Assembly (NCBI RefSeq): GCF_035918095.1
Contig: NZ_CP109137.1
Location: 4,590,001 to 4,654,000, forward strand
Origin: Streptomyces sp. NBC_01750
Lineage (GTDB): Bacteria; Actinomycetota; Actinomycetes; Streptomycetales; Streptomycetaceae
Length of the DNA stretch: 64,000 nt
Reading direction: 5' to 3'
The position numbers were made by a program, and so were the translations under genes. A model generated the notes under the pieces. The model was not told where the DNA came from. It was given only the letters and a program-made list of their open reading frames with translations, and searched no databases. This document shows positions 20,266-37,522 of this stretch, piece by piece. Position 1 is the first letter of the stretch. Every line of letters starts with the position of its first letter.

Positions 20266-20958
20266 ATGACTTCTGCGCGCCGTTCGGCGTTCTTCGATGC
20301 CGACGAGACGGTGATCACTGCCAAGAGCATGTTCGCCTTTCTGCGCCACTGGATGGGTCAGAACGGAGATTCCGGTTCCGGGTACGACAGGGTCATGGCG
20401 GACATCAGATCGCTGGCCGCCGACAACGTCGACCGCATCGAGATCAATCGCACCTACTACCGGCTTTTCAAGGGCGTGCCTCAGCGGGAGCTGGTGGCGG
20501 CGGGCCGCGATTGGTACGACAGGTACCGGAACGGGCCCGGCGCATTCGTCGGGGCCACGCTCGACGCCCTGGACAGGCATCGCGCGGCCGGCGATCTGAT
20601 CTGCCTTGTCTCCGGCTCGTTCCGTGCCGTTCTCGAGCCGCTTGCCGAGGAGATCGCGGCGGAAACCATCCTGTGCACCGAGCCCGTGGTCGGCGAGGAC
20701 GGGCTCCTCACCGGTGAGGTGCACCAGCCGATGATCGGCGCGGCGAAGACCGCCGCGGTAGCCGGCGTGATCGCCGCCCACCGCCTCTCACCTGCGGATT
20801 GCTATGGATACGGCGACCATTTGTCCGACCTGGGGCTGCTGGAACAGGTCGGTAACCCGCATGTCGTCGATGTCGACCCGGCGCTGGTGGCCCTCGCGAA
20901 GGAGCGGGGCTGGCCGGTGCTGCCGGCCGCTCCCGCGGCTCTGCGACAGCGCGACTGA
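20266..20958 (+). CDS. HAD-IB family phosphatase
   Basis: A 230-residue haloacid-dehalogenase-superfamily hydrolase of the SerB-like IB subfamily. The nucleophile motif is FFDADETVIT (Asp11/Asp13), followed by motif II in CLVSGSFRAVLEP and motif III/IV in AKTAAVA and GYGDHLSDLGLL. The helical cap lies at about 20-100. It should remove phosphate from a small metabolite. ATG 20266 has a GGGGGAGC ribosome-binding site. It is flanked by hairpin terminators, so it is monocistronic. It sits at the edge of the accessory block; a phosphatase is needed in AfsA-type butenolide pathways, which makes it a candidate cluster member, but this is inference. Confidence 0.85.
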   Translation: MTSARRSAFFDADETVITAKSMFAFLRHWMGQNGDSGSGYDRVMADIRSLAADNVDRIEINRTYYRLFKGVPQRELVAAGRDWYDRYRNGPGAFVGATLDALDRHRAAGDLICLVSGSFRAVLEPLAEEIAAETILCTEPVVGEDGLLTGEVHQPMIGAAKTAAVAGVIAAHRLSPADCYGYGDHLSDLGLLEQVGNPHVVDVDPALVALAKERGWPVLPAAPAALRQRD

Positions 20959-20992
20959 CCCCCGCCCGTACCGCGGCAATTCATTCTGAATT

Positions 20993-21034
20993 AACCCCCG
21001 GAATTTTTGCGCCGGGGGTTCTTTCGTTCTCTTT
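20993..21034 (+). terminator. Rho-independent terminator after the HAD phosphatase gene
   Basis: AACCCCCGG pairs with CCGGGGGTT across an AT-rich 10-base loop, and a T-rich tract (CTTTCGTTCTCTTT) follows. This is the most canonical intrinsic terminator in the window. Confidence 0.85.
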
Positions 21035-21210
21035 CCTGCCGTGTTGCCAATTTATTAACGGAATCACCGGACGAGTCATTCGGGTATATGCATTCGGTCC
21101 AATGGTTATGCGGTAAACTTTTTAGTACCCCTTTCAAATTGTCCATGGTGAGCTATATCACATGAGATGGCTGAATCTCGTCGGTATCCTTGACTTGTGC
21201 GCGGAGTCGG
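21035..21210 (+). promoter_or_regulatory. AT-rich upstream region of the LuxR-type gene
   Basis: About 175 bases of unusually AT-rich DNA (for example AATTTATTAACGGAATC and AAACTTTTTAGTACCCC) lie between the terminator and the regulator gene. It contains no gene and is the natural place for the regulator's promoter and operators. The base composition contrasts sharply with the flanking core DNA. Confidence 0.45.
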
Positions 21211-21939
21211 ATGACCGCCGGCGCGCATCAAAGCAACAGGGGGGTAGTCTTGCTGGGCGTCTCGGAAATCAGGGAAAGAGAGATCTGTGTACGACGCGTC
21301 GTCGTGGCAATCGGGAATGGTCTGCTGCGTTACGGCGTCGAGAGGATGCTTCAACTGCCATCGGAAGTCGAGGTGCGTTCCCTGCCCGGGATCGTCGATG
21401 CGCTTTCTGACGGTCTCGACGAGGGCGACATACTCATCGCCCTGCTGGGCGAGGTCGACGATACGGTGGCTGCGAAATTACGCAGGAACGAGGAGCGCGG
21501 TGTACGCATCATGCTCCTCATCGAGGACGACGATCTCGTAGATCTGCCCAAGGTGACCGGTATCAGGGCCGGTTTCGTGAAGATCAACGGGATCAACGAG
21601 GACACTCTGAACAAGGCTCTGGATGCTGTTGCCAGGGGTAACGTGCCCATCCCTCCCGAGCTCGCTCAGGATCTGCTTCTGCTCGCGACCCGGCGCAACG
21701 ACGCTCCGCGGGGTCAGCTGAGGCTGACCCCGCGGGAGCAGGAGGCGCTTGTTCTCATGGTTGAGGGGCTGAGCAACAGGCAAATTGCCCGCCGGCTTCA
21801 GATATCTGAGCACGGTGCCAAGCGTCTGGTTGCCAATATTTTGGCAAAGATGGACTGCAACAATCGCACACTCGCTGTTTCGAGGGCGCTCCGCGAAGGC
21901 CTCTACGAGCGCTATGTGAAATCCCTGGGAATGAACTGA
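21211..21939 (+). CDS. LuxR-type regulator with degenerate receiver domain
   Basis: A transcription factor of about 242 residues with NarL-like architecture. The C-terminal LuxR HTH is clear: LRLTPREQEALVLMVEGLSN, then IARRLQISEHGAKRLVANIL. The N-terminal ~120 residues resemble a receiver fold (VVVAIGNGLLRYGVERML at the start), but the acidic pair expected at strand 1 is Ile-Gly and the strand-3 phospho-acceptor region reads ILIALLGEV with no Asp at the usual place, so it is an atypical, phosphorylation-independent regulator. Such proteins often control antibiotic clusters. Start choice is open: ATG 21211 with GGAG four bases upstream, or TTG 21250 after AGGGGGG. Confidence 0.8.
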   Translation: MTAGAHQSNRGVVLLGVSEIREREICVRRVVVAIGNGLLRYGVERMLQLPSEVEVRSLPGIVDALSDGLDEGDILIALLGEVDDTVAAKLRRNEERGVRIMLLIEDDDLVDLPKVTGIRAGFVKINGINEDTLNKALDAVARGNVPIPPELAQDLLLLATRRNDAPRGQLRLTPREQEALVLMVEGLSNRQIARRLQISEHGAKRLVANILAKMDCNNRTLAVSRALREGLYERYVKSLGMN

Positions 21940-21948
21940 CAAGACACT

Positions 21949-22893
21949 CTACGAGGGAATATCGTAGAAGGCTGAATCACCCCAGGTCGCTGTCGCAAGG
22001 TGGCCCTCGGTATCGATGCCGAGGGCCACTGGCGAACTCAGCCCGGTCATGATGGACGTGACCGAACCATCCGTCTCCACCCGCTTGATCTCACCGGCCG
22101 CGCGATCGGTGACATAAACGGAACCCGCCTTGTCGGCCACGATTCCCACGCCCAGTCCCTCGAAGTCGTCGGAGTGGGTTTCCACCGTCCCGTCACGTTT
22201 GACGCGGGACAGCACACCACCCTCGTAATTCGATACATAGATCGTTCCGTCGGCGGTCTCGACCACACCCACCGGCGTGCGCAGCCCATCGGCCACCTTG
22301 CTGCTCTTCCCGTCCGGGGAGACGCTCATGAGCTCATCGGTCGCCCGGTTGGTGACCAGCAGGTTCTGCCGGGAGTCGAAGCTGATGCCGGTCGGTGTGT
22401 GGAAGCCGGAGGCGAATCTCTCCTTCTTCCCCGCGGCCGTGGCGCGGTAGACGACATCGGCGTCGTAGTCGGCGATGTAGAGCGCGCCCTGCCCGTCCAC
22501 GGCCAGACCGGCGGGGGCCTCCAGCCCGGCGGCGTAGACGGAGCGCTTTCCGTCGCGGGTGATCCGCTCCACCGTGCCGGCGGACCAGTTGGACACGAAC
22601 ACTGAGCCGTCCCGGCCGTAGGCGAGACCGGTCGGCGACGAGAATCCGGTGTACTTCGCCCTGCCGGCCTTCACCGGCTTCCCGGCAGGCCTGCCCTTGC
22701 CACCGGCGCCGCTGCCGGCGGTGGCACCGCTGCTGCCCGTGCCGCCGGACCCGTTCGGAGGGCCGGAGGACACCGAGGAACCCGGTGTCCGCGACGCGCC
22801 GCCGCGAGCCGCGTCGTCGTCGCTTCCACAGGCCGCCACGGAGGACATCAGCAGGCCGCCCACGAGAAGCTGCGGAAGGAGTGAGGAACGCAT
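21949..22893 (-). CDS. NHL/SMP-30-like beta-propeller lipoprotein
   Basis: A 314-residue exported lipoprotein. The signal peptide ends in the lipobox VAAC (Cys about residue 20), followed by a Gly/Ser/Pro-rich linker to about residue 75. The rest is six repeated blades of the form GLAYGRDGSVFVSN ... VERITRDGKR, matching NHL/SMP-30-type propellers. These folds include lactonases and gluconolactonases as well as binding proteins. ATG 22893 follows an AGAGG site. It is the last of three same-strand genes (glycosyltransferase, 3-dehydratase, this gene), with short gaps, so it may be co-transcribed with the sugar genes. Substrate unknown. Confidence 0.8.
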   Translation of the reverse strand: MRSSLLPQLLVGGLLMSSVAACGSDDDAARGGASRTPGSSVSSGPPNGSGGTGSSGATAGSGAGGKGRPAGKPVKAGRAKYTGFSSPTGLAYGRDGSVFVSNWSAGTVERITRDGKRSVYAAGLEAPAGLAVDGQGALYIADYDADVVYRATAAGKKERFASGFHTPTGISFDSRQNLLVTNRATDELMSVSPDGKSSKVADGLRTPVGVVETADGTIYVSNYEGGVLSRVKRDGTVETHSDDFEGLGVGIVADKAGSVYVTDRAAGEIKRVETDGSVTSIMTGLSSPVALGIDTEGHLATATWGDSAFYDIPS

Positions 22894-22988
22894 GACCACC
22901 TCTTGGGGGGAGTGGATGAGTGCGCCGACAGACAACGTACGAGTTGGAGCGCACTTCATCGCAAGTGCCGACCGGAGTGCGGGACGGC

Positions 22989-24341
22989 TCAACGCCCCTT
23001 GCTGCGTACGAAATCGGTCACTGACTGGGCCATGTAGTCGATCTTCTCGTCGCTGAGGCCGGGGTGCACGCCGATCCAGAAGCTGTGCTCCGTGATGATG
23101 TCGCTGTTGGTCAGATCGCCGGCCACGCGGTAATTGGTGCCCTGGTACGCCGGGTGCCGGGTCAGATTGCCCGCGAAGACCTGACGCGTGCCGATGCTCC
23201 TCGCCTCGAGGAAGGCCACCAGCTCACGGCGGGTGAAGGGCGCGTCCGGCAGCACGGTGAGCACAAAGCCGAACCAGCTCGGCTCACTGTTCGGCGTGGC
23301 GCTCGGCAGCAGCAGACCGGGCACATCCGCCAGCGCATCGTGCAGCCGCTGCCAGTTGCGCCGGCGGGCCTCGACGAAGACGGGCAGCTTGGCCAGCTGG
23401 GTGAGGCCCAGCGCGGCCTGGCTGTCGGTCGCCTTGAGGTTGTAACCCACGTGCGAGTAGATGTACTTGTGGTCGTAACCCTCGGGCAAGGTGCCGAGCT
23501 GCCAACGGAACCGCTTGGCGCACTTGTTGTCCTCGCCGGGCGCGCACCAGCAGTCCCGGCCCCAGTCGCGCAGTGACTCGACGATGCGCGCCAGATGCAG
23601 GTCACTGGTGGAGACCACCCCGCCCTCGCCCATGGTGATGTGGTGCGCGGGATAGCAGCTGAGCGTCGACAGATCACCGAACGTTCCGGTCAGTTGGCCG
23701 TCGTAACGAGCGCCCAGCGCATCGCAGTTGTCCTCGACGAGCCACAGCTCGTGTTCCTGGGCCAGCTCCGCGATCTCGCGTGCCGCGTATGGATTTCCCA
23801 GCGTGTGGGCGAGGGAGATCGCCTTGGTCTTCGGGCCGATCGCCGCGGCGATCGTGTCGACGCTCGCGTTGTAGGTGCCGAGTTCGGTGTCCACGAACAC
23901 CGGCACCAGGCCGTTCTGCAGCACCGGGTTGACGGTGGTCGGGAAGCCCGCGGCGACCGCGATCACCTCGTCGCCCGGAACCAGCCGCCGGTCGGTGAGC
24001 TGCGGTGACGTGAGTGCGCTGATCGCCAGCAGATTGGCTGACGAGCCGGAGTTCACCAGGTGCGACTTGCGTACGCCGATGGTCTTGGAGAAGCGGCTCT
24101 CGAATTCCTGCGCGGACCTGGCCGCGACGATCCGCATCTCGAGTGCGGCCTCGACGAGCGCGACACGGTCCTCGTCGTCGAAGACCGGGCCGGAGGAGTA
24201 CAGCGGAGTGACACCGGGCACGAACGGCCGGTCCGACTCTTCGGACTGGTGGAACTTGCGTACTGCGTCGAGGAGTTGGGCTTTGGCCTCTTCGCGGCTG
24301 TCCGAGCCAGGCGCCTGGCTCTGTACGGGTGCGCTGGTCAC
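22989..24341 (-). CDS. NDP-4-keto-6-deoxyhexose 3-dehydratase (E1/RfbH type, PMP and [2Fe-2S])
   Basis: A 450-residue member of the DegT aminotransferase fold that has become a dehydratase. The PLP-binding Lys of aminotransferases is replaced by His233 in SCYPAHHITMGEGG. Cys206, Cys264, Cys266 and Cys274 reproduce exactly the C-X57-C-X1-C-X7-C spacing described for the [2Fe-2S] site of Yersinia E1. The enzyme therefore should use PMP and an iron-sulfur cluster to remove the C3 hydroxyl of a 4-keto-6-deoxy sugar nucleotide, with an E3-type reductase supplying electrons. The GTG 24341 start follows AAGGGG. The substrate is presumably the RmlA/RmlB product made by the divergent genes. Confidence 0.92.
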   Translation of the reverse strand: MTSAPVQSQAPGSDSREEAKAQLLDAVRKFHQSEESDRPFVPGVTPLYSSGPVFDDEDRVALVEAALEMRIVAARSAQEFESRFSKTIGVRKSHLVNSGSSANLLAISALTSPQLTDRRLVPGDEVIAVAAGFPTTVNPVLQNGLVPVFVDTELGTYNASVDTIAAAIGPKTKAISLAHTLGNPYAAREIAELAQEHELWLVEDNCDALGARYDGQLTGTFGDLSTLSCYPAHHITMGEGGVVSTSDLHLARIVESLRDWGRDCWCAPGEDNKCAKRFRWQLGTLPEGYDHKYIYSHVGYNLKATDSQAALGLTQLAKLPVFVEARRRNWQRLHDALADVPGLLLPSATPNSEPSWFGFVLTVLPDAPFTRRELVAFLEARSIGTRQVFAGNLTRHPAYQGTNYRVAGDLTNSDIITEHSFWIGVHPGLSDEKIDYMAQSVTDFVRSKGR

Positions 24342-24410
24342 ACTGGACCCCTTGTCTTGTCTTCGTCGGGAGAGAGAAAGCAGGGCTGATCGCGATCGGC
24401 GGTGCGGTGC

Positions 24411-24447
24411 GGGGCTGGGCTGGGCCGGGCTGGGCTGGGCTGGGCTG
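24411..24447. repeat. (GGGCT)n pentanucleotide tract
   Basis: Seven tandem GGGCT units, one with a T-to-C change, fill the gap between the glycosyltransferase stop and the dehydratase start. It is a slippage-prone tract in the presumed mRNA between the two genes. Confidence 0.75.
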
Positions 24448-24448
24448 G

Positions 24449-25591
24449 TCAGCGTGTCTCGGTTTCGAAGGCCGTCTCGAGCAGGCGGACCGTCTCCTCG
24501 AGACCGGTGCGCGCGGCGTTCGCGTGTCGCAGCCGCCACGCGACCTCCTGCAGGCCGGGGTCCTCCAGCACGCTGCGCATGGATGCCCTGATGGCCTCCG
24601 CCGAGGCCTCCTCCGGGTGCAGTACGTGCGCGGCGCCGACCGCCGCGATCCGGTCCGCGTGCTGGTACTGGACGCACATCTGCGGCAGCCCGAGCTGAGG
24701 AATTCCGGCTACGGTCGCGGCCATCGCGCTGCCCGCGCCGCCGTGGTGGATGACGGCGGTGCAGGACGGCAGCACCTGTGAGAGCGGCAGGGTGTGGATC
24801 AGCCGGGTGCGTGCCGGGCGGTCGCGCAGCTGGTCCAGCTTGATGTGGTCGCCGACCGCGATGATCACATCGATGTCGAAGGCGGTCAGCGCCTGGACGG
24901 TGCGCTGGAGCACATTGGCGTGGTCGCCACCGATCGGCGCATTGCCGAGGGTGACGAGCACCCGCGGCGCCTCGGGCTCCTCGAACAACCAGTCCGGCAT
25001 CAGGCCGGCCCCGTTGAAGGGGACGTACCGGCTGGGGACGGCGTTGGCCGGCGGGGTCCGCCACTGCAGTTCGGGCGGGCAGTTGTCGATGATCTTCCAA
25101 TGGGTGTGCGCGTCCTCGCCGAGGCCCCACTTGCGGCGCACGGGCCGCAGCGCCTCGGCGATCGGCTCGTCGACCGCGGTGTCCGCCAGCAGTCCCCAGC
25201 CGTGCAGAACCGTCGGCACGCCGATCAGGTCGGCCGCCAGGGGGGCCGCGTACTCCCAGTCGGTGCACACGATCAGATCCGGCCGCCAGGACTTCGCCAG
25301 CGCCACGGTCCGGTCCACGGTGCGCTCGGTGGCCGGCACGTAGTAGTCGATGATGTGGTCGGTCAGCTCCTCGATCGACGAGCCCTGCTGGGCCCTCCGA
25401 GTGCCGAGGTCGCCCAGCCGGAAGTCCTCGGCGACCGCCACGGACGAGATTCCCGCCTCGGCGGTGAGCCGCGCGAACCTGTCGGGCAGCGCGGCCAGTA
25501 CCTCGTGACCGGCGTTCCGCAATGCCCACAGCGTCGAAATCATTGGATAGAGATGCCCCTGGTTGGGAGCACTGGTCGCCAGAATTCGCAT
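24449..25591 (-). CDS. GT1 family glycosyltransferase (macrolide/antibiotic type)
   Basis: A 380-residue GT-B enzyme of family GT1, like those that glycosylate polyketides. The N-terminal acceptor domain starts MRILATSAPNQGHLYPM with the His that usually serves as base (His13). The C-terminal nucleotide-sugar domain has the PSPG-like stretch VIHHGGAGSAMAATVAGIPQ near residue 300 and QYQHADRIAAVGAA. It acts in the cytosol and would move a deoxysugar from dTDP onto the cluster's aglycone. The group resembles activator-dependent enzymes, but no P450-like activator gene is present here. It diverges from rmlB across 175 bases and leads a leftward operon. Confidence 0.9.
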   Translation of the reverse strand: MRILATSAPNQGHLYPMISTLWALRNAGHEVLAALPDRFARLTAEAGISSVAVAEDFRLGDLGTRRAQQGSSIEELTDHIIDYYVPATERTVDRTVALAKSWRPDLIVCTDWEYAAPLAADLIGVPTVLHGWGLLADTAVDEPIAEALRPVRRKWGLGEDAHTHWKIIDNCPPELQWRTPPANAVPSRYVPFNGAGLMPDWLFEEPEAPRVLVTLGNAPIGGDHANVLQRTVQALTAFDIDVIIAVGDHIKLDQLRDRPARTRLIHTLPLSQVLPSCTAVIHHGGAGSAMAATVAGIPQLGLPQMCVQYQHADRIAAVGAAHVLHPEEASAEAIRASMRSVLEDPGLQEVAWRLRHANAARTGLEETVRLLETAFETETR

Positions 25592-25766
25592 TGCTCGAAC
25601 ATAAGGAATCCATATTCCATCGGTCAATGCCCGCCAATTATCAGCCCTTTGGGTGTAGCCGTCTGGTGCATGCCCTCACGGGCAGCCCAGAAGCGCCTTG
25701 TCGGGCGGACGGTGGCGCTGGCAGGGTCGTCGGCAATCGTCCTCGAATGCTGGACAGGTGAATTCC

Positions 25767-26741
25767 ATGCGCATTCTGGTTACCGGCGGGGCAGGTTTCA
25801 TTGGTTCGCACTATGTGCGCAGCCTCCTCGGCACCGATCCGAACGGCGGCGCGGTGGAACGGCTCACCGTGCTCGACAAGCTGACCTACGCCGGAGACAA
25901 GAGCAATATCGCGCCACATCTGGCCGACCCTCGCCTGACATTCGTGCACGGCGACATCGTTGATCCGGAGCTGGTCGACGAGGTCATGGCCGGCCAGGAC
26001 GTCGTGGTGCACTTCGCCGCCGAATCGCACGTCGACCGGTCCATCGCCGAAGCGTCGGTCTTCGTCCGTACGAACGTGCTCGGCACAGAAGTGCTGCTCA
26101 GCGCGGCCCGACGGCATGACGTCGGCACCTTTGTGCATGTCTCCACCGACGAGGTCTACGGCTCCCTGGAGCGGGGCTCATGGCCCGAGACCGACCCGGT
26201 CGACCCCAACTCGCCCTACGCGGCCAGCAAGGCTTCCTCGGATCTGCTGGCCCTCGCCTACCACCGCACGTATGGAATGGACGTACGGATCACGCGCTGC
26301 TCCAACAACTACGGCCCGTATCAATTCCCCGAGAAGGTCATTCCTTTGTTCGTGACCAATCTGCTCGAAGGGAAGAAGGTACCGCTCTACGGCGACGGAA
26401 CGAACGTGCGCGACTGGCTGCATGTCGACGACCACTGCAGCGGAATCCGGCTGGTGGTGGAGAAGGGGCAGCCGGGTGAGATCTACAACATCGGCGGCGG
26501 ACAGGAACTGGCCAATATTGAACTGGCCGATCTGCTCCTCGATGCCCTGGGTCACGGCCGGGAAATGATCGAGTACGTCGAGGACCGCAAAGGACACGAC
26601 CGCCGCTACTCCGTGGACTGGTCGAAAGCGCGCGCGGAAATCGGCTATGAGCCCAGGCACGACTTCTCATCCGGACTCGCCGACACCATCGCCTGGTACC
26701 GGGAAAACCGCGACTGGTGGACAGCTCTGAAGAAAAGGTGA
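25767..26741 (+). CDS. rmlB: dTDP-glucose 4,6-dehydratase
   Basis: A 324-residue extended SDR that converts dTDP-glucose to dTDP-4-keto-6-deoxyglucose. The NAD motif GGAGFIGSHYVR begins at residue 8, and the catalytic set is complete: Thr/Asp/Glu in HVSTDEVYGSL and YxxxK in SPYAASKASSD. RCSNNYGPYQFPEK is the family signature. ATG 25767 is chosen because the Rossmann strand follows at once; its ribosome-binding site (GGACAGG) is weak. It is followed 7 bases later by rmlA. The product is the expected substrate of the iron-sulfur 3-dehydratase on the other strand. Confidence 0.95.
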   Translation: MRILVTGGAGFIGSHYVRSLLGTDPNGGAVERLTVLDKLTYAGDKSNIAPHLADPRLTFVHGDIVDPELVDEVMAGQDVVVHFAAESHVDRSIAEASVFVRTNVLGTEVLLSAARRHDVGTFVHVSTDEVYGSLERGSWPETDPVDPNSPYAASKASSDLLALAYHRTYGMDVRITRCSNNYGPYQFPEKVIPLFVTNLLEGKKVPLYGDGTNVRDWLHVDDHCSGIRLVVEKGQPGEIYNIGGGQELANIELADLLLDALGHGREMIEYVEDRKGHDRRYSVDWSKARAEIGYEPRHDFSSGLADTIAWYRENRDWWTALKKR

Positions 26742-26748
26742 ATCGCTG

Positions 26749-27615
26749 ATGCGTGGAATCATCCTGGCGGGAGGCGCCGGCACCCGGCTTCGGCCGCTGA
26801 CCTCGGTGACATCGAAACAGCTGCTCCCGGTCTACGACAAGCCAATGATCTACTACCCGCTCTCGGTCCTGCTGCTGGCGGGGATCCGCGAGATCCTGAT
26901 CATCACCACCCCGGAGAGCCATCAGGACTTCCACCGGCTCCTCGGGGACGGCGAGCGGCTCGGTATCCGGATCGAGTACGCCCAGCAGGACGAGCCGCGG
27001 GGCCTGGCCGACGCCTTTCTGCTCGGCCGCCGCTTCATCGGTGACGACCAGGTCTGCCTGGTGCTGGGCGACAACATCTTCCACGGCCAGGACCTGCCGA
27101 CCACCGTCCGCAAGGAGGTCGCGCAGCTCGAAGGGGCGACCCTCTTCGGCTACCAGGTCGACGATCCCCGGCGGTACGGCATCGCGGTACTGGACGAGGA
27201 AGGGCGGCTGCTCGACATCGAGGAGAAGCCCACCGAGCCGAAGTCGGACCTGGCGGTCACCGGTCTCTACCTCTATGACAACGATGTGGTGTCGTACGCG
27301 GCGGAGCTGTCGCCCTCCGCGCGCGGCGAACTGGAAATCACCGACATCAACCGGCGCTATGTGGAGCAGGGCAGGGCGCGGCTGGTGAATCTGGGATCCG
27401 GCACGGCATGGCTGGACACCGGCACCCACGACAGCCTCTTCGAGGCGGCGGGCTATGTGCATGCCGTGCAGACGCGGCAGGGAGTGCAGATCGCCTGCAT
27501 CGAGGAGGTCGCCTTCCAGATGGGGTTCATCGGCGCCGCCGATGTGGCCAACAGCATTGACACCTACGGGCCTTCGTCGGACTACGGGCGCCATCTGGCG
27601 CGGCTGCTGGCCTGA
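26749..27615 (+). CDS. rmlA: Glucose-1-phosphate thymidylyltransferase
   Basis: A 288-residue sugar nucleotidylyltransferase that joins glucose-1-phosphate to dTTP. The signature GGAGTRLRPLT is at residues 8-18, with SKQLLPVYDKPMIYYPLS close behind, LGDNIFHG near 110 and EEKPTEPKSD near 160. This is the short form without extra domains. It begins the dTDP-deoxysugar branch and is co-transcribed with rmlB. A dedicated copy inside the cluster is usual for antibiotic sugars and separate from the cell-wall rhamnose copy expected elsewhere in the chromosome. A strong hairpin follows. Confidence 0.95.
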   Translation: MRGIILAGGAGTRLRPLTSVTSKQLLPVYDKPMIYYPLSVLLLAGIREILIITTPESHQDFHRLLGDGERLGIRIEYAQQDEPRGLADAFLLGRRFIGDDQVCLVLGDNIFHGQDLPTTVRKEVAQLEGATLFGYQVDDPRRYGIAVLDEEGRLLDIEEKPTEPKSDLAVTGLYLYDNDVVSYAAELSPSARGELEITDINRRYVEQGRARLVNLGSGTAWLDTGTHDSLFEAAGYVHAVQTRQGVQIACIEEVAFQMGFIGAADVANSIDTYGPSSDYGRHLARLLA

Positions 27616-27650
27616 GCGGGCAGCAGGGCGGCAGGGCAGCTGAACAGATG

Positions 27651-27682: not shown

Positions 27683-27712
27683 TGTTGTCGGTCGGTCCGG
27701 GAGCCGGTGGCG

Positions 27713-30041: not shown

Positions 30042-30082
30042 CCTCTTCACTTCTCCAGTTCACTTTCCAGGAGGAAATCCTC

Positions 30083-30700
30083 GTGTCCGCACGCCTGTTG
30101 CTCGTGACCGAAGTGCCGGTGCAGAGCGAAGAGATCGACAAGACCATCGCGGCCTGGACCGCGCACAACGCCGCCTCCGAGCACGGCGGCTCCGTGCTCT
30201 ACCGCTCGATCGACGACGCGGACCTGCTGGTGGAGCTGACGCCGGTCACCGGCCTCGCCGAGATCGCCGAGCGCGACGCGGCCCACCGAGAGCTCGCTGC
30301 CACCATCGCGCCCGCCCTCGCCGGTGACTTCCGCCGCCAGGTCGTCGAGTTCGTCGAGGCGCCGAAGGACACGGACGAGCCGCTGCCGGCGACTGCGTAC
30401 ATCCAGCTGAGGCATGTCGAGGTGAAGCCCCCGGTGCACGACGCGTACCGGGAGTGGCGGGACCGCACGATCTTCGACGTCGTACGCACACACGACGAGG
30501 TCGAGGTCTTCCTGGCCTACCACTCCCTGCTGAGCACCGAGCCCGGCGTGCTGTTCGTCTCCGGATTCTCCGTCGAACCCGATGTATACCAGGCGGTGTT
30601 CACCTCCCCCCGGTACCAGGACATCGTCAAGCAGGCCGGCGACACGTACATCACCGACCGGGGTCTCTACACCCGGATCTACGCCCGCGTCGAGAACTGA
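30083..30700 (+). CDS. Unrecognised 205-residue protein, possible tandem alpha-beta barrel
   Basis: No family assigned. Two halves (about 1-95 and 103-205) each show a pattern of strand, helix, strand, strand, helix, strand: LLLVTEVPV and ADLLVELTPV in the first, AYIQLRHVEV and VEVFLAYHSL and GVLFVSGFSV in the second. This resembles a tandem of ferredoxin-like domains, as in antibiotic biosynthesis monooxygenases and some cyclases. No metal or flavin motif is visible and there is no signal peptide. The GTG start follows GGAGGAAATCCTC, a strong ribosome-binding site. Its place directly after the AfsA-like gene suggests an early tailoring role. Confidence 0.75.
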   Translation: MSARLLLVTEVPVQSEEIDKTIAAWTAHNAASEHGGSVLYRSIDDADLLVELTPVTGLAEIAERDAAHRELAATIAPALAGDFRRQVVEFVEAPKDTDEPLPATAYIQLRHVEVKPPVHDAYREWRDRTIFDVVRTHDEVEVFLAYHSLLSTEPGVLFVSGFSVEPDVYQAVFTSPRYQDIVKQAGDTYITDRGLYTRIYARVEN

Positions 30701-30712
30701 GGGGCCCGGACG

Positions 30713-31525
30713 ATGACTGAGCTGAAGCAGACGGACCGCGAAGTGGCCGTCGTCAGCGGCGCCACCGGCGGAATCGGCGGCGCGGTCGTGGAGCGGCTGG
30801 CCGCGGACGGGGCCCACGTGGTGCTGCTCGGCCGTGACGCGGCCCGGCTGGAGGCGGCGAGGAAGCGTATCGCCGGCGTGCTCGACAAGGAGGGCGACGG
30901 TGGGCACGAGCTCACCGCCGTGGTTCTCGACATCAACTCGACCGCGTCGGTCGAGGAAGGCATCGCCTGGGTGGTCCAGCATTTCGGCCGGATCGACGTG
31001 CTGGTGAACGCCGCGGGCGACGGCCCGGTGGCTCCCCTGCTCGAATCCACCGACGAGCAGTGGAACACCACGGTCAACAGCAAGCTGTTCGGCGCGATAC
31101 GGCTCACCCGGGCGGTCGCCCGGGCGATGGCGGAGCGCGGAACGGGCCGGATCGTCTTCATCAACGGTTCGTTCCGCCGCGAGCCCGATCCACTCTTCGT
31201 GATCAACGCGGTCGCCAACGCCGGACTCGGCGGATTCGCCAAGGCGATCTCCCGCGACCTGGGCCGGAGCGGACTGCGGGTCAACACCGTGGACCCGGGT
31301 GCGACCGACACCGATCTGTGGACGCAGACCCTCGCGGACCTCGGCCGGCGCTTCGGCATCAGCCCCGAGCAGGTGGGCGAGGACTTCCTCGGCAAGACGC
31401 CGTACGGATCGCTGCCGACGCCCGCCGATGTCGCCGAGGCGGTGGCCTATCTCGTTTCGCCCGGCGCCGCGCAGATCAACGGCGCCTCGATCACCGTCGA
31501 CGGTGGCGCCTCGGTGGCGCTGTAG
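30713..31525 (+). CDS. SDR family oxidoreductase (FabG-like)
   Basis: A 270-residue classical short-chain dehydrogenase. The cofactor motif is SGATGGIGGAVVERL (about residues 15-29), with LLGRDAARLE after strand 2 giving a likely NADPH preference, and NAAGDGPVAP. In the catalytic region, FINGSFRREPDPLFVINAVAN occupies the place of the Ser and YxxxK motif; the expected Tyr is not evident there (F or a shifted residue instead), which should be checked by structure alignment. The C-terminal PGATDTDLW and NGASITVDGGAS are typical of FabG-like enzymes. It starts 12 bases after the previous gene. It probably reduces a keto group on the acyl or butenolide intermediate. Confidence 0.85.
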   Translation: MTELKQTDREVAVVSGATGGIGGAVVERLAADGAHVVLLGRDAARLEAARKRIAGVLDKEGDGGHELTAVVLDINSTASVEEGIAWVVQHFGRIDVLVNAAGDGPVAPLLESTDEQWNTTVNSKLFGAIRLTRAVARAMAERGTGRIVFINGSFRREPDPLFVINAVANAGLGGFAKAISRDLGRSGLRVNTVDPGATDTDLWTQTLADLGRRFGISPEQVGEDFLGKTPYGSLPTPADVAEAVAYLVSPGAAQINGASITVDGGASVAL

Positions 31526-31540
31526 GTGGAGGAAGCCGAG

Positions 31541-32773
31541 ATGGTCACCACGGCACAGACATCCTCCTCCGCCGCCGAGCGTTCCACGGCGGCGGCCTGG
31601 CGCGCGGCCGTCGTCGCCGCGGCCGCGACCTGCTGCGCGGTCTCCACCATCTACATGACGCAGCCGGTCTTCCCCGAGATCGCCGCGTCCTTGAAGGTCG
31701 GCCCGGAGGACGCCCGGTTCGTCTTCACCGTGGCGACCTTCGCGTACGCCCTGTCGTTCTTTCTCTTCGGGCCGCTCTCCGACCGGTTCAGCAGCAGGGC
31801 GCTGGGCGGCAGCGGAGCGGTGACGGTCGCCGCGCTGATCGGCGTCGCCGCGGTGGTGCCCGACTTCACGGTGTTCGCGCTGCTGCTCGCGGTGGCCGGG
31901 ATCGCGGCCGCCGCGGTACCGGCCGCGATGATCGCGCTGATGCCGAGAATCGCTCCCGACGGTCTGGTCGGGGTCTTCTTCGGACTGATCATCGGGGCCA
32001 CGGTCGCCGGCATCACCCTTGGACGCTCCTTCACCGGCGTCGTCGCCGGATGGGCCGACTGGCACAAGGCGGTGCTGCTGCTCGCGGCGCTCAATGTGCT
32101 GACCGCGGTGCTGCTGCGGCTGCTGCCGACACCGCGCGCGGACCACCTCCGGGCCCGCAAGCCGGTGGGGCAGGCGTATCTGGCGGCACTGCGGATGTTC
32201 GGACAGGGGCCCGTGGTGCGGTTGTTCGGCGTCGGCGCGCTGCTGTTCTTCGGCTATCTCGGACTCGTCACGTTTCTGACGTACCGGCTGCAGGGCGCTC
32301 CGTTCCACTACACCGCCGGTGCGATCGGCACGGTGAGCCTGATCGGTCTGACCGGTGTGCTGGGCGCACCGCTGGCCGGCCGGCTGAGCAGCCGGATCGC
32401 GCCGCGCCAGGTGGTGCTGCTGGGCCTCGGCCTGGTGATGGCCGGTGTCGCCGCGCTCGGGGCGGCGTCGGGCACCGCGCTGCTGGTGGTCGGGATGCTG
32501 CTGCTCTTCCTGGGCGTCTTCTCGTGCCAGCCGGCCGTGCTGGTGCTGCTGGCCCGGGCCGTGCCCCAGGAACAGCGCGGCGCCGCCTCGTCCATGTACA
32601 TGCTCGTCTGCCTGCTCGCGGGCAGCGCCGCCAGCGCCGCGCTCGGTCCGGTGTGGACCGGTGGCGGCTGGGGTGCCGTGGTGGCCACCGGCGCGGGCTC
32701 CGTGGGACTCGCGGCCGCACTCGCGGCGCTCGGTTTCCGGGACAGCACAGCGGAAGGGAGTGGCTCGCGATGA
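31541..32773 (+). CDS. MFS transporter
   Basis: A 410-residue inner-membrane protein with about 12 predicted helices of the major facilitator superfamily. The intracellular loop 2-3 motif is GPLSDRFSSRALG, and drug-exporter-like Pro/Gly-rich helices follow. The N-terminus is a 35-residue cytoplasmic segment. ATG 31541 was preferred over GTG 31526 because GGAGG lies at ideal distance. It lies inside the biosynthetic operon with tight spacing on both sides and shares ATGA with the next gene, so it is a good candidate for exporting the cluster product and giving self-protection. The substrate cannot be read from sequence. Confidence 0.9.
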   Translation: MVTTAQTSSSAAERSTAAAWRAAVVAAAATCCAVSTIYMTQPVFPEIAASLKVGPEDARFVFTVATFAYALSFFLFGPLSDRFSSRALGGSGAVTVAALIGVAAVVPDFTVFALLLAVAGIAAAAVPAAMIALMPRIAPDGLVGVFFGLIIGATVAGITLGRSFTGVVAGWADWHKAVLLLAALNVLTAVLLRLLPTPRADHLRARKPVGQAYLAALRMFGQGPVVRLFGVGALLFFGYLGLVTFLTYRLQGAPFHYTAGAIGTVSLIGLTGVLGAPLAGRLSSRIAPRQVVLLGLGLVMAGVAALGAASGTALLVVGMLLLFLGVFSCQPAVLVLLARAVPQEQRGAASSMYMLVCLLAGSAASAALGPVWTGGGWGAVVATGAGSVGLAAALAALGFRDSTAEGSGSR

Positions 32774-33615
32774 GCCGTTCGCAGAGCTACCGGCTCAGCC
32801 CCACCACCCAGGGGCCGTCGTATCCGCCCAGTGAGATCGTCGACGCCGACGGAGACTTCGTGGTGATCGGGATGATCAACCGGGAGGGGCCTTCGGGCGG
32901 TGTCGAACGGTCCTGGGGATCCGCGATCGTGAGCCCCAAGAGCGATCTGCCGCCGTTCGGCGAGCAGCTCCCGTACACCGTCGTACGTGAGCTGGGCAGC
33001 GAACTCGGTCCGGCGGACCAGGACATGGTGCTGTACACGCTGCCGCTTCCGCTGCCGTGCAACAACTACCCGATGGTCTTCGCCCCCGAGCAGCGGCCGG
33101 ACGCGAACGAGATCGTACGGCCGAGCTATCCGCTGCATCAGGCGCCGATCCCCGATCTGCGGCCCGAGGACGGGCCGAAGGTGACCGAGCCGATCACACT
33201 CGGCCGGTGGGTCCAGGCGGAGGGGGTGCTGGAGGTGGAGCTCACTCCGGACGGCCGGAGCGCCGTTTTCCGGATGGAGTTCGGCGGGCTGGTCCCCAAC
33301 AGCCTCTACACGGTGATGTCCCTGCGGCAGCACGACCTGGACCCGGCGGGGCCCACCCGGCCGGGGCCGCTGGGCGTGCCCAATGTCTTCGTCACCGACG
33401 AGGACGGCAGCGCGCGTTACCGCGCGACCATGCCGCACCCCTTCCCGGCGCCCGGCACGCCGGGAGGGAACCGCATCATCAATGTCGTGGTGCTGTGGAT
33501 GAGTTATCAGCAGAACTACGGCGGTGCCATCGGCTGGTTCGGCCTGGGTGGCGACATTCATGCTCAGTTGAAACTTCAGAAGCCGGAATTTCACGAATTC
33601 GTAACGACGGAATGA
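32770..33615 (+). CDS. Unrecognised 281-residue protein, beta-rich
   Basis: No family assigned. The N-terminal half (1-130) is Pro-rich with short strands; the C-terminal half has a repeated strand pattern (AVFRMEFGGLVPNSLYTVMS, then GPLGVPNVFVTDEDGSARYR) that resembles a beta-sandwich in which a domain of the type seen after GLxPxxxYTV is followed by a TDxxGxAxY strand. No signal peptide, so cytosolic. It overlaps the MFS gene by four bases (ATGA), so it is translationally coupled to it. It may be a cyclase or a binding partner for the intermediate; both are speculation from context. It is the least familiar large protein of the operon. Confidence 0.75.
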   Translation: MSRSQSYRLSPTTQGPSYPPSEIVDADGDFVVIGMINREGPSGGVERSWGSAIVSPKSDLPPFGEQLPYTVVRELGSELGPADQDMVLYTLPLPLPCNNYPMVFAPEQRPDANEIVRPSYPLHQAPIPDLRPEDGPKVTEPITLGRWVQAEGVLEVELTPDGRSAVFRMEFGGLVPNSLYTVMSLRQHDLDPAGPTRPGPLGVPNVFVTDEDGSARYRATMPHPFPAPGTPGGNRIINVVVLWMSYQQNYGGAIGWFGLGGDIHAQLKLQKPEFHEFVTTE

Positions 33616-33631
33616 ATTGAGGTTGGTGGCT

Positions 33632-33847
33632 GTGCCGTTCATCACTGTGACCACGTGGCCGAATCAGACGGATGAGAAGAGTCAGGAGCTGATCGAGGAG
33701 ATAACCAAGGCCACGCACAAGGTCACCGGAGCGCCGCTCGACAAGATAGCGGTGGTCATTCAGGAGATTCCCCAGAATCGTTGGGGCGAGGGTGGGATCA
33801 TGGCTACGAACCCGGAATTTCCGGAGTTGAGCCGACGCCGGAACTGA
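33632..33847 (+). CDS. 4-oxalocrotonate tautomerase family protein
   Basis: A 71-residue tautomerase-superfamily subunit. After removal of the GTG-encoded Met, the mature N-terminus is Pro1 (PFITVTTWPN), the catalytic base of this family, and the fold follows as beta-alpha-beta with TEKSQ-like helix and IAVVIQEIPQNRWGEGG. Such enzymes shift keto-enol double bonds. The start at 33632 is set by the need for Pro at position 2; a TTG five codons upstream would bury it. A GAGG site precedes it. It is the sixth gene of the operon, so it probably tautomerises an enol or exocyclic alkene of the intermediate. Confidence 0.88.
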   Translation: MPFITVTTWPNQTDEKSQELIEEITKATHKVTGAPLDKIAVVIQEIPQNRWGEGGIMATNPEFPELSRRRN

Positions 33848-33890
33848 GCCGGCGCAGGTCCTGAACCATGGAACAAGGAGTCTTCCAGGC

Positions 33891-34718
33891 ATGGCAGTTG
33901 AGTCCCACAGCGAAAAGGACCGCTACACCAGGGGGTTGGCCATCCTTCAGCAACTGGCCGCTGAGGAACGTCCTTCGGTGCTCGACAGCTTCTCCGACAT
34001 CGCACCGGATCTCGGCCGGTTCACGGTGGAGTTCCCCTACGGCGACATCTATGCGCGCTCATCACTCACGCTGCGTCAGAGGCAACTGGCGACAGTGGGT
34101 GCCCTGACGGCTCTCGGACATGCCGCACCGCAGCTGAAGTTCCATATCTCGGGAGCGCTCAATATCGGTGTGACCCGGCGTGAGATCGTCGAGGCGATCC
34201 TTCATGTCGTGGTGTACGCGGGATTCCCGGCGGCCATCAATGGCCTGAATGTCGCCAAGGCGGTGTTCGCGGAGCGTACGGACGACAGCGACGAGGCCCC
34301 GCACGCCGTCAGCGAGCATGACGAGGCGCCGCGCTACGACCGTGGCTGGGACGCGCTCGCCGAGATCGACGGCGACGCGGGCGAGGCCGTGATCGAGAGT
34401 CTCAAGGACATCGCTCCCGATCTCGCCCGCTACATCGTGGAGTTCTCCTTCGGGGACATCTATACGCGGGGTGGTCTCGACCTGCATGCCCGCGAAGTGG
34501 TGACGATCGCCGCCTGCACAGCGCTGGGTACGGCCCGCCCCCAGCTCAAGGTTCATGTGAACGGGCTGCTCAACGTCGGCGGCACCCAGGACGAAGTCGT
34601 CGAGACCATCCTGCAGATGGCTGTCTACGCCGGCTTCCCCGCCGCGATCAACGGCATCACGGCCGCCCGTGAGGTCTTCGCGGAGCGGGCGGAGCGTTCG
34701 GGCCCGTCCGGCGACTGA
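33891..34718 (+). CDS. Tandem carboxymuconolactone decarboxylase-fold protein
   Basis: A 275-residue protein with two consecutive CMD/AhpD-fold domains (about 10-125 and 150-265). Both have the pattern LRQRQLATVGALTALGHAAPQL ... HISGALNIG and GTQDEVVETILQMAVYAGFPAA, with the His in PQLKFHISG and PQLKVHVNG. No CxxC is present, so these are decarboxylase-like rather than AhpD peroxidase-like. The first domain differs slightly from the second (LNIG vs LNVG), consistent with an internal duplication. It closes the seven-gene operon and could act on a ring-opened lactone or enol acid next to the tautomerase. Confidence 0.85.
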   Translation: MAVESHSEKDRYTRGLAILQQLAAEERPSVLDSFSDIAPDLGRFTVEFPYGDIYARSSLTLRQRQLATVGALTALGHAAPQLKFHISGALNIGVTRREIVEAILHVVVYAGFPAAINGLNVAKAVFAERTDDSDEAPHAVSEHDEAPRYDRGWDALAEIDGDAGEAVIESLKDIAPDLARYIVEFSFGDIYTRGGLDLHAREVVTIAACTALGTARPQLKVHVNGLLNVGGTQDEVVETILQMAVYAGFPAAINGITAAREVFAERAERSGPSGD

Positions 34719-34752
34719 GTACGCCGCGTTTTCCGGACGGGCCGGTCACCGA

Positions 34753-35814
34753 CTAGTCCCTCAGGTTCGGGAACGCGCGGGCGGCGCGCGGCGGCACGGC
34801 GAAGGTGGCCCGGCTCCGGACATCCATCACGGAGTTGATGCCGTTGTTCCTGCGGACGCCGATACCGCCGTGGTGCCCGCCCGCGTCGGCCGCGTTCATC
34901 ACCGCGCGGGTGGCGTTGAAGTCCTCCATGGTGCGCTGCAGGGACACGAAATGTGTCCCGGGCGCGCCATGGTCGAGCGTCGCGAAGTCGCGCCGGTTGA
35001 TCCGGGGACGCCCGTACAGCCGGGCGCGTCCGGTGGCCTGCGCATGGCCGACCTGTCCGTGCGCGGCGGCCAGCGCCGGCATCCGGTCCGCGTCGCTCTT
35101 CGCGTCGTCCACCAGCTTCTCGGCCTCGTCGGCGCCGATGCCGGGCGCGTACATCTGCGCGCTGCGGGTGTCGCGGTCCTGCTCGTACCAGCTGTCGAGG
35201 TCGAGCTCGATATGGCTCACATGCATGGTGGTGCCGCCGGCCAGCGGGCCCTCGATGATGGTGATGCTCTCCTCGGTGGCCTGGTTGCCGCGCAGACCCG
35301 AGTGGAAGCCGAGCAGCAGCGGCGCCTTTGGGGAGAGCCCGCGTTCGGGCAGTCGCTCGGCGGGCAGCCCGCTCCCGACGAAACCGGTGCGTACCTCACG
35401 AATCCGCAGCCGGGTGCGCTGGTCGAGCGGGCCGGGTCCGAAGAGCGCCTCGGTGATCTCGGCGAGGCGGTCCTCGTCGTCGGACGCGAGATGCAGACAG
35501 GCGTCGATGTCCTCCAGCACCGGGTTCTCCCAGCGCGCCATGGGGATCGCTCGGGGTACGGGGGAACGGACGGCGGTGTGCCGCGCATACCACCCGAAGC
35601 CCCAGCCCAGGCAGCTGAGCAGCCCGTGGGGTCCGTGCGGGAATCGCTCCTCCAGGGCAGCGAGCGCATCCTCCAGGCGCTCGGCGTCCGCGGCGGTGGG
35701 GCGGTCCACGACATCGAGCATGAGCAGCCGGTGGAAGCGCGGCGCGAGCGGGCGCCCCACCTCGTCGGTGAGAAAGGTCGATTCCCATGCGTGCTGGGCC
35801 TCGGGCAGTTTCAT
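34753..35814 (-). CDS. Dyp-type-peroxidase-like protein
   Basis: A 353-residue cytosolic protein with a distant resemblance to Dyp-type peroxidases or the DUF7405 group: RFHRLLMLDVVD near residue 25, a GFHSGLRGNQATEE stretch near 170, and several His/Arg that could bind heme (for example GQVGHAQATGRARL near 270). I am not sure of the heme ligand, so the name is tentative. It is convergent with the biosynthetic operon and overlaps the downstream-coded reductase gene by four bases (ATGA), so the two are co-expressed. It may be a separate oxidative stress unit or a late oxidase. Confidence 0.55.
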   Translation of the reverse strand: MKLPEAQHAWESTFLTDEVGRPLAPRFHRLLMLDVVDRPTAADAERLEDALAALEERFPHGPHGLLSCLGWGFGWYARHTAVRSPVPRAIPMARWENPVLEDIDACLHLASDDEDRLAEITEALFGPGPLDQRTRLRIREVRTGFVGSGLPAERLPERGLSPKAPLLLGFHSGLRGNQATEESITIIEGPLAGGTTMHVSHIELDLDSWYEQDRDTRSAQMYAPGIGADEAEKLVDDAKSDADRMPALAAAHGQVGHAQATGRARLYGRPRINRRDFATLDHGAPGTHFVSLQRTMEDFNATRAVMNAADAGGHHGGIGVRRNNGINSVMDVRSRATFAVPPRAARAFPNLRD

Positions 35815-36512
35815 ACGGGTTCCTTGTCGGGCGCGGCGTCGGGCCGAGGTACGGACTGCGGATCGGGCTGGGTGTCGGGCCGAGGACCGGACTGCGGACC
35901 GGACTGGACGTCGGGCTGAAGGCGGGCGTATGCGGCGGCCCAGTCGGCAGGTGGCGTGCCCGGCTCGCTGAACAGCCCGAAGGTCGTACGGACGGCTCTC
36001 CCGCTCTCGATGGCCGCGACCAGCGCCACCGCGATGTCCGCACGGGAGACCATGCCGTCGGCCTGCGGATCCTGGGTGAGGGTGATGGCGTGCGCACCGG
36101 GCGGATCGTCGGTGAGCCAGGTGGGGCGGACGATCGTGTACGGCAGACCGCCGGCGCGCAGATCCTCTTCGGAGGCGATCCTGGCCGGCAGTTGGGTGGC
36201 ATCGACCCGGCTCAGCGGGTGGGCATTCCCGTGGCCGACGACGAAGGAGCTCACCAGCAGGATGCGCGGGGGCGTGGGCAGTTCGGCGGCAGCGGCGAGC
36301 AGGGTACGCATGGCCTGCTGGGCGTGCAGGCGGGCATCCCCGCGCTTGGGGACGAGGACGGCGGCGTCGGTGCCGGCGAGCGCCCGGCGGACGGGCCCGA
36401 CCTCGTCGTAGGTGCTGAGCCGGCGTACGTCGTGCCCCCCGGCGCCGGCGAGTTCCGCGAAGTGCACCGCGGTGGTGCCGGGCGACATGGTCCCGGCGAT
36501 GGCAAGTCTCAT
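35811..36512 (-). CDS. NmrA-like NAD(P)-binding atypical SDR
   Basis: A 233-residue atypical short-chain dehydrogenase. It starts at MRLAIAGTMSPG, a slightly degenerate nucleotide-binding loop; the strand 5 region LLVSSFVVGHGNA and the YTIVRPTWL motif are those of SDR_a5/NmrA-like proteins. The last 30 residues are a low-complexity Pro/Asp/Gln tail. Proteins of this kind act as NADPH sensors or reductases. It is the first gene of a two-gene unit with the peroxidase-like gene and diverges from a LysR regulator gene, the usual arrangement for LysR control. Confidence 0.7.
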   Translation of the reverse strand: MRLAIAGTMSPGTTAVHFAELAGAGGHDVRRLSTYDEVGPVRRALAGTDAAVLVPKRGDARLHAQQAMRTLLAAAAELPTPPRILLVSSFVVGHGNAHPLSRVDATQLPARIASEEDLRAGGLPYTIVRPTWLTDDPPGAHAITLTQDPQADGMVSRADIAVALVAAIESGRAVRTTFGLFSEPGTPPADWAAAYARLQPDVQSGPQSGPRPDTQPDPQSVPRPDAAPDKEPV

Positions 36513-36613
36513 GGCAGCACGGTAGGAGCGGGAAACGGCGGAGGGGAAAGACCGAACCGATCTCAACTCATAGGCCACGGTGATGAATTCGCTGCGATCC
36601 GTATCCTGGCTCC

Positions 36614-37522
36614 ATGATTCCGGAGGCGAGGCTGCTGCGCTATTTCCTCGCCGTCGCCGAGGAACGGAACTTCACCCGCGCCGCCGAGCGACTGCACATC
36701 GCACAGCCGTCGTTGAGCGCACAGATCCGCAGGCTGGAGTCCCAGCTGGGTGTACGGCTTCTGGAGCGGACCACCCGTGTGGTGCGGCTGACCGAAGCGG
36801 GCCGTGCGGTCCAGGAGCGTGGCCCGGCCGCGCTGGCGGCGCTCTTCGAGGTCTGGGACGCCGCGCGCCGCGCGGGCCGCGGCGAGCTCGGCCGGATCCG
36901 TATCGTCTACAGCGCGAGTACCGGGTACGGCACCGTCCCCCACCTGGTGGAGTCGCTGCACCGGCATCATCCCGACATCGAGGTGAGCGCCGAGATGCTT
37001 CGCACGCCCGATATCGGTCCGGCTGTGCTGGAGGGCCGTGCCGACGTCGGTATCGCGCGTACTCCGGAGCCGGCCGGGGGTGTGCGCGTGCGGCCACTGC
37101 GCTGGGAGCGCCGGGGGATCCTGGTCGCCGCGGGCCATCCGCTCGCGGCCGCGGCACCAGGCGTCCACCCGGCTGCGATCGCCGCGTTCCCCGTGCTGGC
37201 GCATCCGCGCGAGGCCAACCCGGCCCACTACGACGAGCTGGTGGAACTGTTCCGCCGGGCCGGCGTACGGCCCCGGCTGGTCGAACGGCCGGTGGCCTTC
37301 GACCCCACCCAGCGGGTCCTGCGCGACGCGGAAACCGTCGCCCTGGTCGGCGAGGCCTCCGCGGACGGACTCTCTCCGTGGCTGCGGTGGCTGCCGCTGG
37401 CCGAGCCCCATGACCGGCTGCTGGTCGCGCTCGTGCTGCCGGACCCCGCGCCCCCGTCGGCCGAGCGCTTCGAGCGAGTGGCGCTCGAGGCGGCGGCGGA
37501 GGCCGGCTGGCTGCCCGGCTGA
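36614..37522 (+). CDS. LysR family transcriptional regulator
   Basis: A 302-residue LysR regulator. The winged HTH covers residues 1-60 (RYFLAVAEERNFTRAAERLH, then SLSAQIRRLESQLGVRLLERT), with a periplasmic-binding-protein-like effector domain after residue 90. It is divergent from the NmrA-like/peroxidase-like pair, and 101 bases separate the starts, so it probably regulates that pair and itself. A link to the biosynthetic operon is not demonstrated by the sequence. It is convergent with dacA across a strong bidirectional hairpin. Confidence 0.92.
   Translation: MIPEARLLRYFLAVAEERNFTRAAERLHIAQPSLSAQIRRLESQLGVRLLERTTRVVRLTEAGRAVQERGPAALAALFEVWDAARRAGRGELGRIRIVYSASTGYGTVPHLVESLHRHHPDIEVSAEMLRTPDIGPAVLEGRADVGIARTPEPAGGVRVRPLRWERRGILVAAGHPLAAAAPGVHPAAIAAFPVLAHPREANPAHYDELVELFRRAGVRPRLVERPVAFDPTQRVLRDAETVALVGEASADGLSPWLRWLPLAEPHDRLLVALVLPDPAPPSAERFERVALEAAAEAGWLPG

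Follow-up and report, generated by a model that had tools for sequence, protein, structure and literature searches.

A predicted butenolide island with a deoxysugar branch in Streptomyces sp. NBC_01750 and its relation to a Ruegeria pomeroyi killing locus

We analysed a 64,000-nucleotide stretch of the 8.98-Mb genome of Streptomyces sp. NBC_01750 (NCBI RefSeq assembly GCF_035918095.1, contig NZ_CP109137.1, positions 4590001-4654000; hereafter the window), which carries at 20068-37597, without an assigned strand, an island of genes for an AfsA-type protein, a carrier protein with its condensing enzyme and a deoxysugar pathway. The island lies between the bkd E2 gene (18622-20067) and dacC (37598-38590). 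These flanks are adjacent in three of four fetched relatives, with ~70, ~90 and ~280 bp between alignment ends compared with 17.5 kb in the window; the fourth has a dacC relative, and E2 is absent from the stretch retrieved. The whole ~17.5-kb block, including the HAD-IB phosphatase gene at its left end, is therefore best read as a real unit and one insertion, which bears out a preliminary description of this DNA as one compact block between core genes. A housekeeping role for the HAD gene as a neighbour of bkd was rejected: the E2-dacC interval of the three relatives contains no HAD relative, and HAD relatives accompany AfsA elsewhere.

Gene content of the island

The genes at the heart of the proposal lie together. 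An acyl carrier protein (ACP) with a DSL motif (27713-27967, minus strand; PF00550, 31.1 bits) is encoded next to a β-ketoacyl-ACP synthase III (KASIII; 27997-29037, minus; NF006829, 401 bits, cut-off 249; PDB 2x3e, E 1.2e-102) that is predicted to make acetoacetyl-ACP, and in which the Cys, His and Asn that we take to be the catalytic triad were all seen by eye. On the plus strand stands the gene for the AfsA-type protein, a single-hotdog protein of 248 aa (29295-30041; PF03756, 63.2 bits, cut-off 24) predicted to be a phosphorylated-butenolide synthase. It is followed on the same strand by genes for a 205-aa protein with a double antibiotic-biosynthesis-monooxygenase (ABM) fold, here called EthD (30083-30700), a short-chain dehydrogenase/reductase (SDR; 30713-31525; PF13561, 144 bits), a predicted major facilitator superfamily (MFS) exporter (31541-32773; PF07690, 154.6 bits), an all-beta protein of 281 aa and no known family, here called U281 (32770-33615), a 4-oxalocrotonate-type tautomerase (33632-33847; PF01361, 48.3 bits, E 9.8e-13 at 33617-33847) and a double carboxymuconolactone decarboxylase (CMD)-domain protein (33891-34718; PF02627, 142.6 bits, two stretches). 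The tautomerase probably starts at the GTG at 33632, which places Pro right behind the start codon, and it scores slightly below the cut-off of TIGR00013 (52.6 bits, cut-off 56.9). The HAD-IB phosphatase (20266-20958, plus; TIGR01490, 121 bits, cut-off 98) is predicted to dephosphorylate a butenolide phosphate.

Between the HAD gene and the KASIII/AfsA genes, inside the same insertion, lie the genes of the sugar branch. They encode an RfbH-type pyridoxal phosphate (PLP)/[2Fe-2S] sugar 3-dehydratase (22989-24341, minus; NF011936, 660.8 bits, cut-off 423; PDB 3bcx, E 4.6e-148), an EryCIII-like glycosyltransferase (24449-25594, minus; PF21036, 105 bits, PF06722, 102 bits) that scores too low for the activator-dependent subfamily TIGR04516 (221 bits, cut-off 440), the dTDP-glucose 4,6-dehydratase RmlB (25770-26741, plus; TIGR01181, 438.9 bits, cut-off 365) and the glucose-1-phosphate thymidylyltransferase RmlA (26749-27615, plus; TIGR01207, 417.9 bits, cut-off 361). 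In the RfbH-type protein the Fe-S cysteine spacing CX57CX1CX7C is intact and His234 stands in for the PLP Lys, both of which we take to be rules of this enzyme class. It shares these features with RfbH/E1, the CDP-6-deoxy-glucoseen 3-dehydrase of PDB 3bcx, and differs from it in being set with RmlA and RmlB, that is, with deoxythymidine diphosphate (dTDP) rather than cytidine diphosphate (CDP) sugar genes.

Profile scans thus found in 20266-37522 every gene type that the preliminary description had named, the small tautomerase between U281 and the CMD protein included. Beyond that list are the HAD-IB phosphatase, the 205-aa double ABM-fold protein, U281, a beta-propeller protein and a DUF7405 protein.

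Neither the 205-aa protein nor U281 has a Pfam match. The predicted structure of the former (pLDDT 94.5) shows a double ABM/ferredoxin-like fold whose structural neighbours are putative monooxygenases, an anthrone-oxidase-like protein and PenE. The U281 model (pLDDT 89) displays an all-beta sandwich weakly similar to Cu,Zn superoxide dismutase (SOD). Pfam scans at E 0.1 (U281 minus its first 16 residues) and, for the tautomerase, at E 0.05 matched none of the 19 island proteins to AvrD. We accordingly rejected U281 as an AvrD-type synthase, its model being SOD-like rather than hotdog, and the island as a methylenomycin or sphydrofuran cluster.

The AfsA-U281 module and the Ruegeria pomeroyi locus

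Related loci were fetched with an alignment of 33 AfsA sequences, and the best 80 of 99 were kept. Genes were called in them with a GC3/longest-ORF script and presence was scored by tblastn thresholds over no more than 10 kb to either side; because several loci are cut short, all locus counts are lower bounds. AfsA is present in these loci by construction, and a U281 search of 392 genus genomes served as the reciprocal test. A second set of 12 related loci overlaps the first in at least two cases (L137 with L054, L139 with L048; the coordinates in G351 are those of a plasmid of Streptomyces sp. YIM 121038), so the two sets are not independent. The closest AfsA relatives of the window protein are Streptomyces proteins, at 95% and 88%.

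A U281 relative was found in 39 of the 80 loci. These 39 hold relatives of HAD (39), EthD (31), the tautomerase (24), KASIII (22), SDR (16), CMD (15), aldo/keto reductase (AKR; 13), thiolase (8), MFS (5) and the propeller protein (3), the last two counted at at least 100 bits. The corresponding counts in the 41 loci without U281 are 15, 0, 1, 11, 0, 13, 12, 3, 1 and 0. On these numbers HAD, EthD, tautomerase and SDR are associated with U281, and CMD and AKR are not. In the reciprocal search U281 occurred in 12 of the 392 genomes, the window's own included, and in all 12 the distance to an AfsA-family gene is under 3 kb; in 11 this gene is a relative of the window-type AfsA, and in genome G074 it is a ScbA/BarX equivalog 2.2 kb away. 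As judged from this linkage, AfsA, the HAD-IB phosphatase, the double ABM-fold protein and U281 are a conserved module, often joined by the tautomerase, a CMD protein and an enzyme that supplies acetoacetyl units.

The module extends across Actinobacteria and Alpha-, Beta- and Gammaproteobacteria. All seven gammaproteobacterial U281 loci (Serratia, Photorhabdus, Vibrio, Ewingella, Gilliamella) have a thiolase relative, and KASIII was not found there. KASIII and thiolase are both able to make an acetoacetyl thioester, and the use of one in some lineages and the other in others indicates an acetoacetyl unit. In a U281 tree of 43 rows the betaproteobacterial sequences of Burkholderiaceae, Ideonella and Sphaerotilus form a clade among actinobacterial sequences, which makes movement from one phylum to another likely. 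The window's U281 groups with sequence P0121 and that of Streptomyces sp. 4N509B (support 100/99).

U281 also matches the megaplasmid of R. pomeroyi DSS-3, at 60% identity and 98% query coverage. The gene order there is MFS, CMD, AKR, LysR, EthD-like, AfsA, U281-like, tautomerase, HAD, and the further identities to the window are 61% for EthD (best segment, 159 of 205 aa), 45% for CMD, 44% for the tautomerase, 35% for HAD and 31% for AfsA. The island 20068-37597 therefore holds homologues of all four proteins of the R. pomeroyi-type module (AfsA, EthD, U281 and HAD; 31-61%) as well as of its tautomerase and CMD companions, and both loci have MFS and LysR genes alongside. They differ in that the 16.8-kb R. 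pomeroyi stretch is without annotated sugar, KASIII or ACP genes and has an aldo/keto reductase where the island has the SDR.

According to the accessible part of the R. pomeroyi report (PMC7426152), diffusible killing was abolished in six DSS-3 mutants, all with insertions in a single cluster. In three of them afsA (SPOA0342) was hit, in two the flanking SPOA0341 and in the remaining one the regulator gene SPOA0344; disruption of SPOA0341 or SPOA0344 also made the cells sensitive to the parent, self-immunity having been lost. That part of the report describes the killing phenotype and leaves the molecule unnamed. Judging by gene order relative to SPOA0342 and SPOA0344, which the source names, SPOA0341 would be the U281 homologue and SPOA0343 the EthD homologue. 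Homology to this locus makes an antibacterial role of the window's module likely.

Predicted pathway and competing explanations

In the available portion of PMC7756379, the AfsA-like domain of the gladiostatin synthase is described as releasing 3-ketobutyryl-ACP with dihydroxyacetone phosphate (DHAP) in vitro; AfsA/ScbA hormone synthases and this domain share the PF03756 fold, the condensation of a 3-ketoacyl thioester with DHAP and, in some pathways, a phosphatase partner. The island protein differs from both in being a stand-alone single hotdog of 248 aa that is tied to U281 and the ABM-fold protein. Its AfsA Glu/Arg motif (E137/R140) is invariant among the 33 aligned sequences. The G074 locus (L140:6353-7441) encodes a 362-aa ScbA/BarX-type synthase (208 bits, cut-off 200) near U281, EthD, HAD, KASIII and MFS genes. 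Since a ScbA/BarX-type enzyme there takes AfsA's place, the single-hotdog protein is indicated to perform the same kind of reaction, and we regard this swap as the best indirect evidence for it.

Whereas gene content, insertion, conserved linkage and R. pomeroyi homology can be read from the sequence, we infer all of the chemistry, as follows. KASIII and ACP would supply acetoacetyl-ACP, which the AfsA-type protein would condense with DHAP to a phosphorylated 2-acetyl-3-hydroxymethylbutenolide of C7 scale. The HAD enzyme would remove the phosphate, and the tautomerase, CMD protein, ABM-fold oxygenase, SDR and U281 would together remodel the C7 core. RmlA, RmlB and RfbH would provide a dTDP-3,6-dideoxy sugar, or a 2,3,6-trideoxy sugar if a 2,3-dehydratase were borrowed from a cluster at 6.7 Mb; the glycosyltransferase would attach it and the MFS protein would export the product. 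We thus predict that the island specifies a small butenolide that likely carries a 3-deoxysugar, is likely exported and probably acts against bacteria, and put the probability of this reading at roughly 55%. It agrees with the preliminary description in its route from KASIII, ACP and AfsA to a small butenolide-type compound without a polyketide synthase (PKS), which the gene content supports, and in its 3-deoxysugar branch, for which RmlA, RmlB, the glycosyltransferase and the intact cysteine spacing of RfbH argue.

Several observations weigh against it. The AfsA-type protein has one PF03756 hotdog stretch, not two repeats as in ScbA/BarX, and reaches 36.2 bits against the ScbA/BarX model NF041195 (cut-off 200), on which ground we rejected a plain ScbA/BarX assignment. 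CMD relatives are no commoner with U281 (15/39) than expected from the other loci (13/41), and just 5 of the 39 U281 loci have an MFS relative scoring 100 bits or more. Eight Nocardia/Rhodococcus U281 loci yielded no KASIII, thiolase or EthD, so the acetoacetyl rule is not universal. In the R. pomeroyi afsA mutant the expression of ten cluster genes was lowered (PMC7426152, accessible part). On the sugar side, we recognised no 4-ketoreductase dedicated to the sugar among the island genes, and the window yielded no 2,3-dehydratase, which a trideoxysugar would call for in RfbH's cluster; the sugar is accordingly uncertain, either 3,6-dideoxy or 2,3,6-trideoxy with help in trans. Relatives of the sugar genes at 100 bits were found in none of the 80 AfsA-fetched loci and none of the 12 loci of the second set (RmlB-like matches of 45-51 bits at three loci stay below this threshold and were not counted). 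The link between sugar and module therefore rests on this one island, and, among the loci compared, glycosylation would be particular to this lineage.

The explanation that competes best, though we hold it unlikely, is that the AfsA branch makes a gene-switching hormone (a butenolide, furan or butyrolactone signal) and not the exported bioactive compound. AfsA-family enzymes are best known for hormones (PMC7756379, available portion), the need for afsA in full cluster expression means that AfsA could make a signal in R. pomeroyi, and a TetR-type neighbour (cluster c5) stands at 27 of 109 clustered loci, the same genome being counted twice in some. However, the 19 island proteins include no recognisable TetR/ArpA-type receptor, the rest of the genome not having been searched for one; the module includes an MFS exporter and tailoring enzymes and the island a glycosyltransferase; and a separate AfsA is present at 8.66 Mb. 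There, at G000:C1:8663899-8664630 near the chromosome end, two AfsA-domain matches fall in a 343-aa frame that is probably the genome's ordinary hormone synthase.

It is more doubtful still that the island combines two unrelated functions, with the AfsA module making an aglycone and RmlA, RmlB, RfbH and the glycosyltransferase decorating something else. The lack of sugar genes at the 80 and 12 related loci would fit such a split, as would the commonness of the RfbH type outside the module: relatives occur in 102 of the 392 genus genomes, and at 16 of 29 loci inspected a 2,3-dehydratase lies no further than ~1.5 kb away. The position of the sugar genes within the one insertion, between HAD and the KASIII/AfsA module genes, and the match of the glycosyltransferase to EryCIII-like domains of small-molecule glycosyltransferases both argue against it. 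Hotdog folds are frequent hosts of thioesterases and dehydratases, and with one hotdog stretch and its low ScbA score the AfsA-type protein might be one of these and the product another acetoacetate-derived compound, but this we consider improbable given its PF03756 score above cut-off, its invariant Glu/Arg motif, the ScbA/BarX-type enzyme in its place in G074 and the phosphatase relative in 39 of 39 U281 loci, which fits a phosphorylated intermediate.

Pathways of related logic are already known. In the accessible part of PMC12593393, methylenomycin biosynthesis in S. coelicolor is proposed to form acetoacetyl-ACP with MmyC/MmyA and to condense it by a butenolide synthase. The logic is alike, whereas MmyD is AvrD-like with a proposed pentulose substrate, the tailoring is different and that part of the source does not describe glycosylation. 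The sphydrofuran cluster of Streptomyces ambofaciens (PMC11195616, available portion) shares ACP, KASIII, a butenolide synthase, CMD, an antibiotic-biosynthesis monooxygenase, a phosphatase, MFS and LuxR, and leads to a PKS-free small furan; it differs in its AvrD-family synthase and histidine phosphatase, and neither a tautomerase nor nucleotide-sugar genes appear in its gene table (no search for U281 was made in this cluster). The island would belong among the AfsA-type butenolide pathways, with the glycosylated set as the new part. The earlier statement that no cluster with this exact set is known accordingly holds for the glycosylated set and fails for the core, which is shared with the R. 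pomeroyi killing locus and whose ACP/KASIII/butenolide-synthase/CMD/phosphatase logic resembles that of sphydrofuran.

The glycosylated butenolide reading connects the orphan killing phenotype of a marine roseobacter with a cluster from actinomycetes, a group of antibiotic producers in which the compound could be produced and purified, and it identifies candidate enzymes. The conserved core implies that the molecule should be small and PKS-free, the acetoacetyl supply by KASIII or thiolase, depending on lineage, hints at its building block, and two unannotated protein families, those of U281 and of the ABM-fold protein, acquire a definite setting. If the product is indeed glycosylated, it would represent a new chemotype, and the sugar might serve to protect the producer. 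A broader and more tentative proposal is that of a cross-phylum family of C7-scale, AfsA-made antibacterials in which AfsA would build a weapon rather than a hormone, marked by U281 with its SOD-like beta-sandwich and by the fused double-ABM oxygenase. The window would then hold the first known glycosylated member, exported sugar-capped and perhaps masked, with the propeller lipoprotein handling it outside the cell.

Regulators, remaining genes and other loci

A LuxR-type regulator (21265-21939, plus; PF00196, 48.9 bits), whose start is uncertain between 21190 and 21265, holds the sole TTA codon that a count over 17 island genes revealed, which suggests bldA control. The Vgb/ScyE-like beta-propeller protein (21949-22893, minus; NF033206, 107.5 bits, cut-off 80) has an N-terminus that looks lipoprotein-like by eye, and a role in extracellular handling or immunity is possible. 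At the right end are the DUF7405 protein (34753-35814, minus; PF24152, 279.6 bits), without relatives at 100 bits in the 80 AfsA-fetched loci, and an NAD(P)H-binding protein (35811-36515, minus; PF13460, 71 bits), both perhaps passengers, and a LysR regulator (36614-37522, plus; PF00126, 88.7 bits, PF03466, 82.2 bits).

The genome carries a second deoxysugar region at ~6.685-6.705 Mb, with RfbH (70% to the window's), RmlB (63%) and a 2,3-dehydratase (PF03559 matches at 6.703-6.704 Mb). Oxidase- and methyltransferase-like genes were also seen there by eye, and the region is probably an aromatic polyketide cluster.

Among the other loci, that on the linear 968-kb plasmid pSSP121038 of Streptomyces sp. 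YIM 121038 combines the module with a gene for a TauD/TfdA dioxygenase and with two genes annotated as a KASIII-carrier protein pair. Twelve Amycolatopsis-group loci have a CMD gene directly behind the AfsA relative, and U281 was not found in them; they perhaps represent a different AfsA-CMD pathway. Finally, a neighbour family of ~967 aa (cluster c45) is common to five AfsA loci from Catenulispora, Kitasatospora and Burkholderia.

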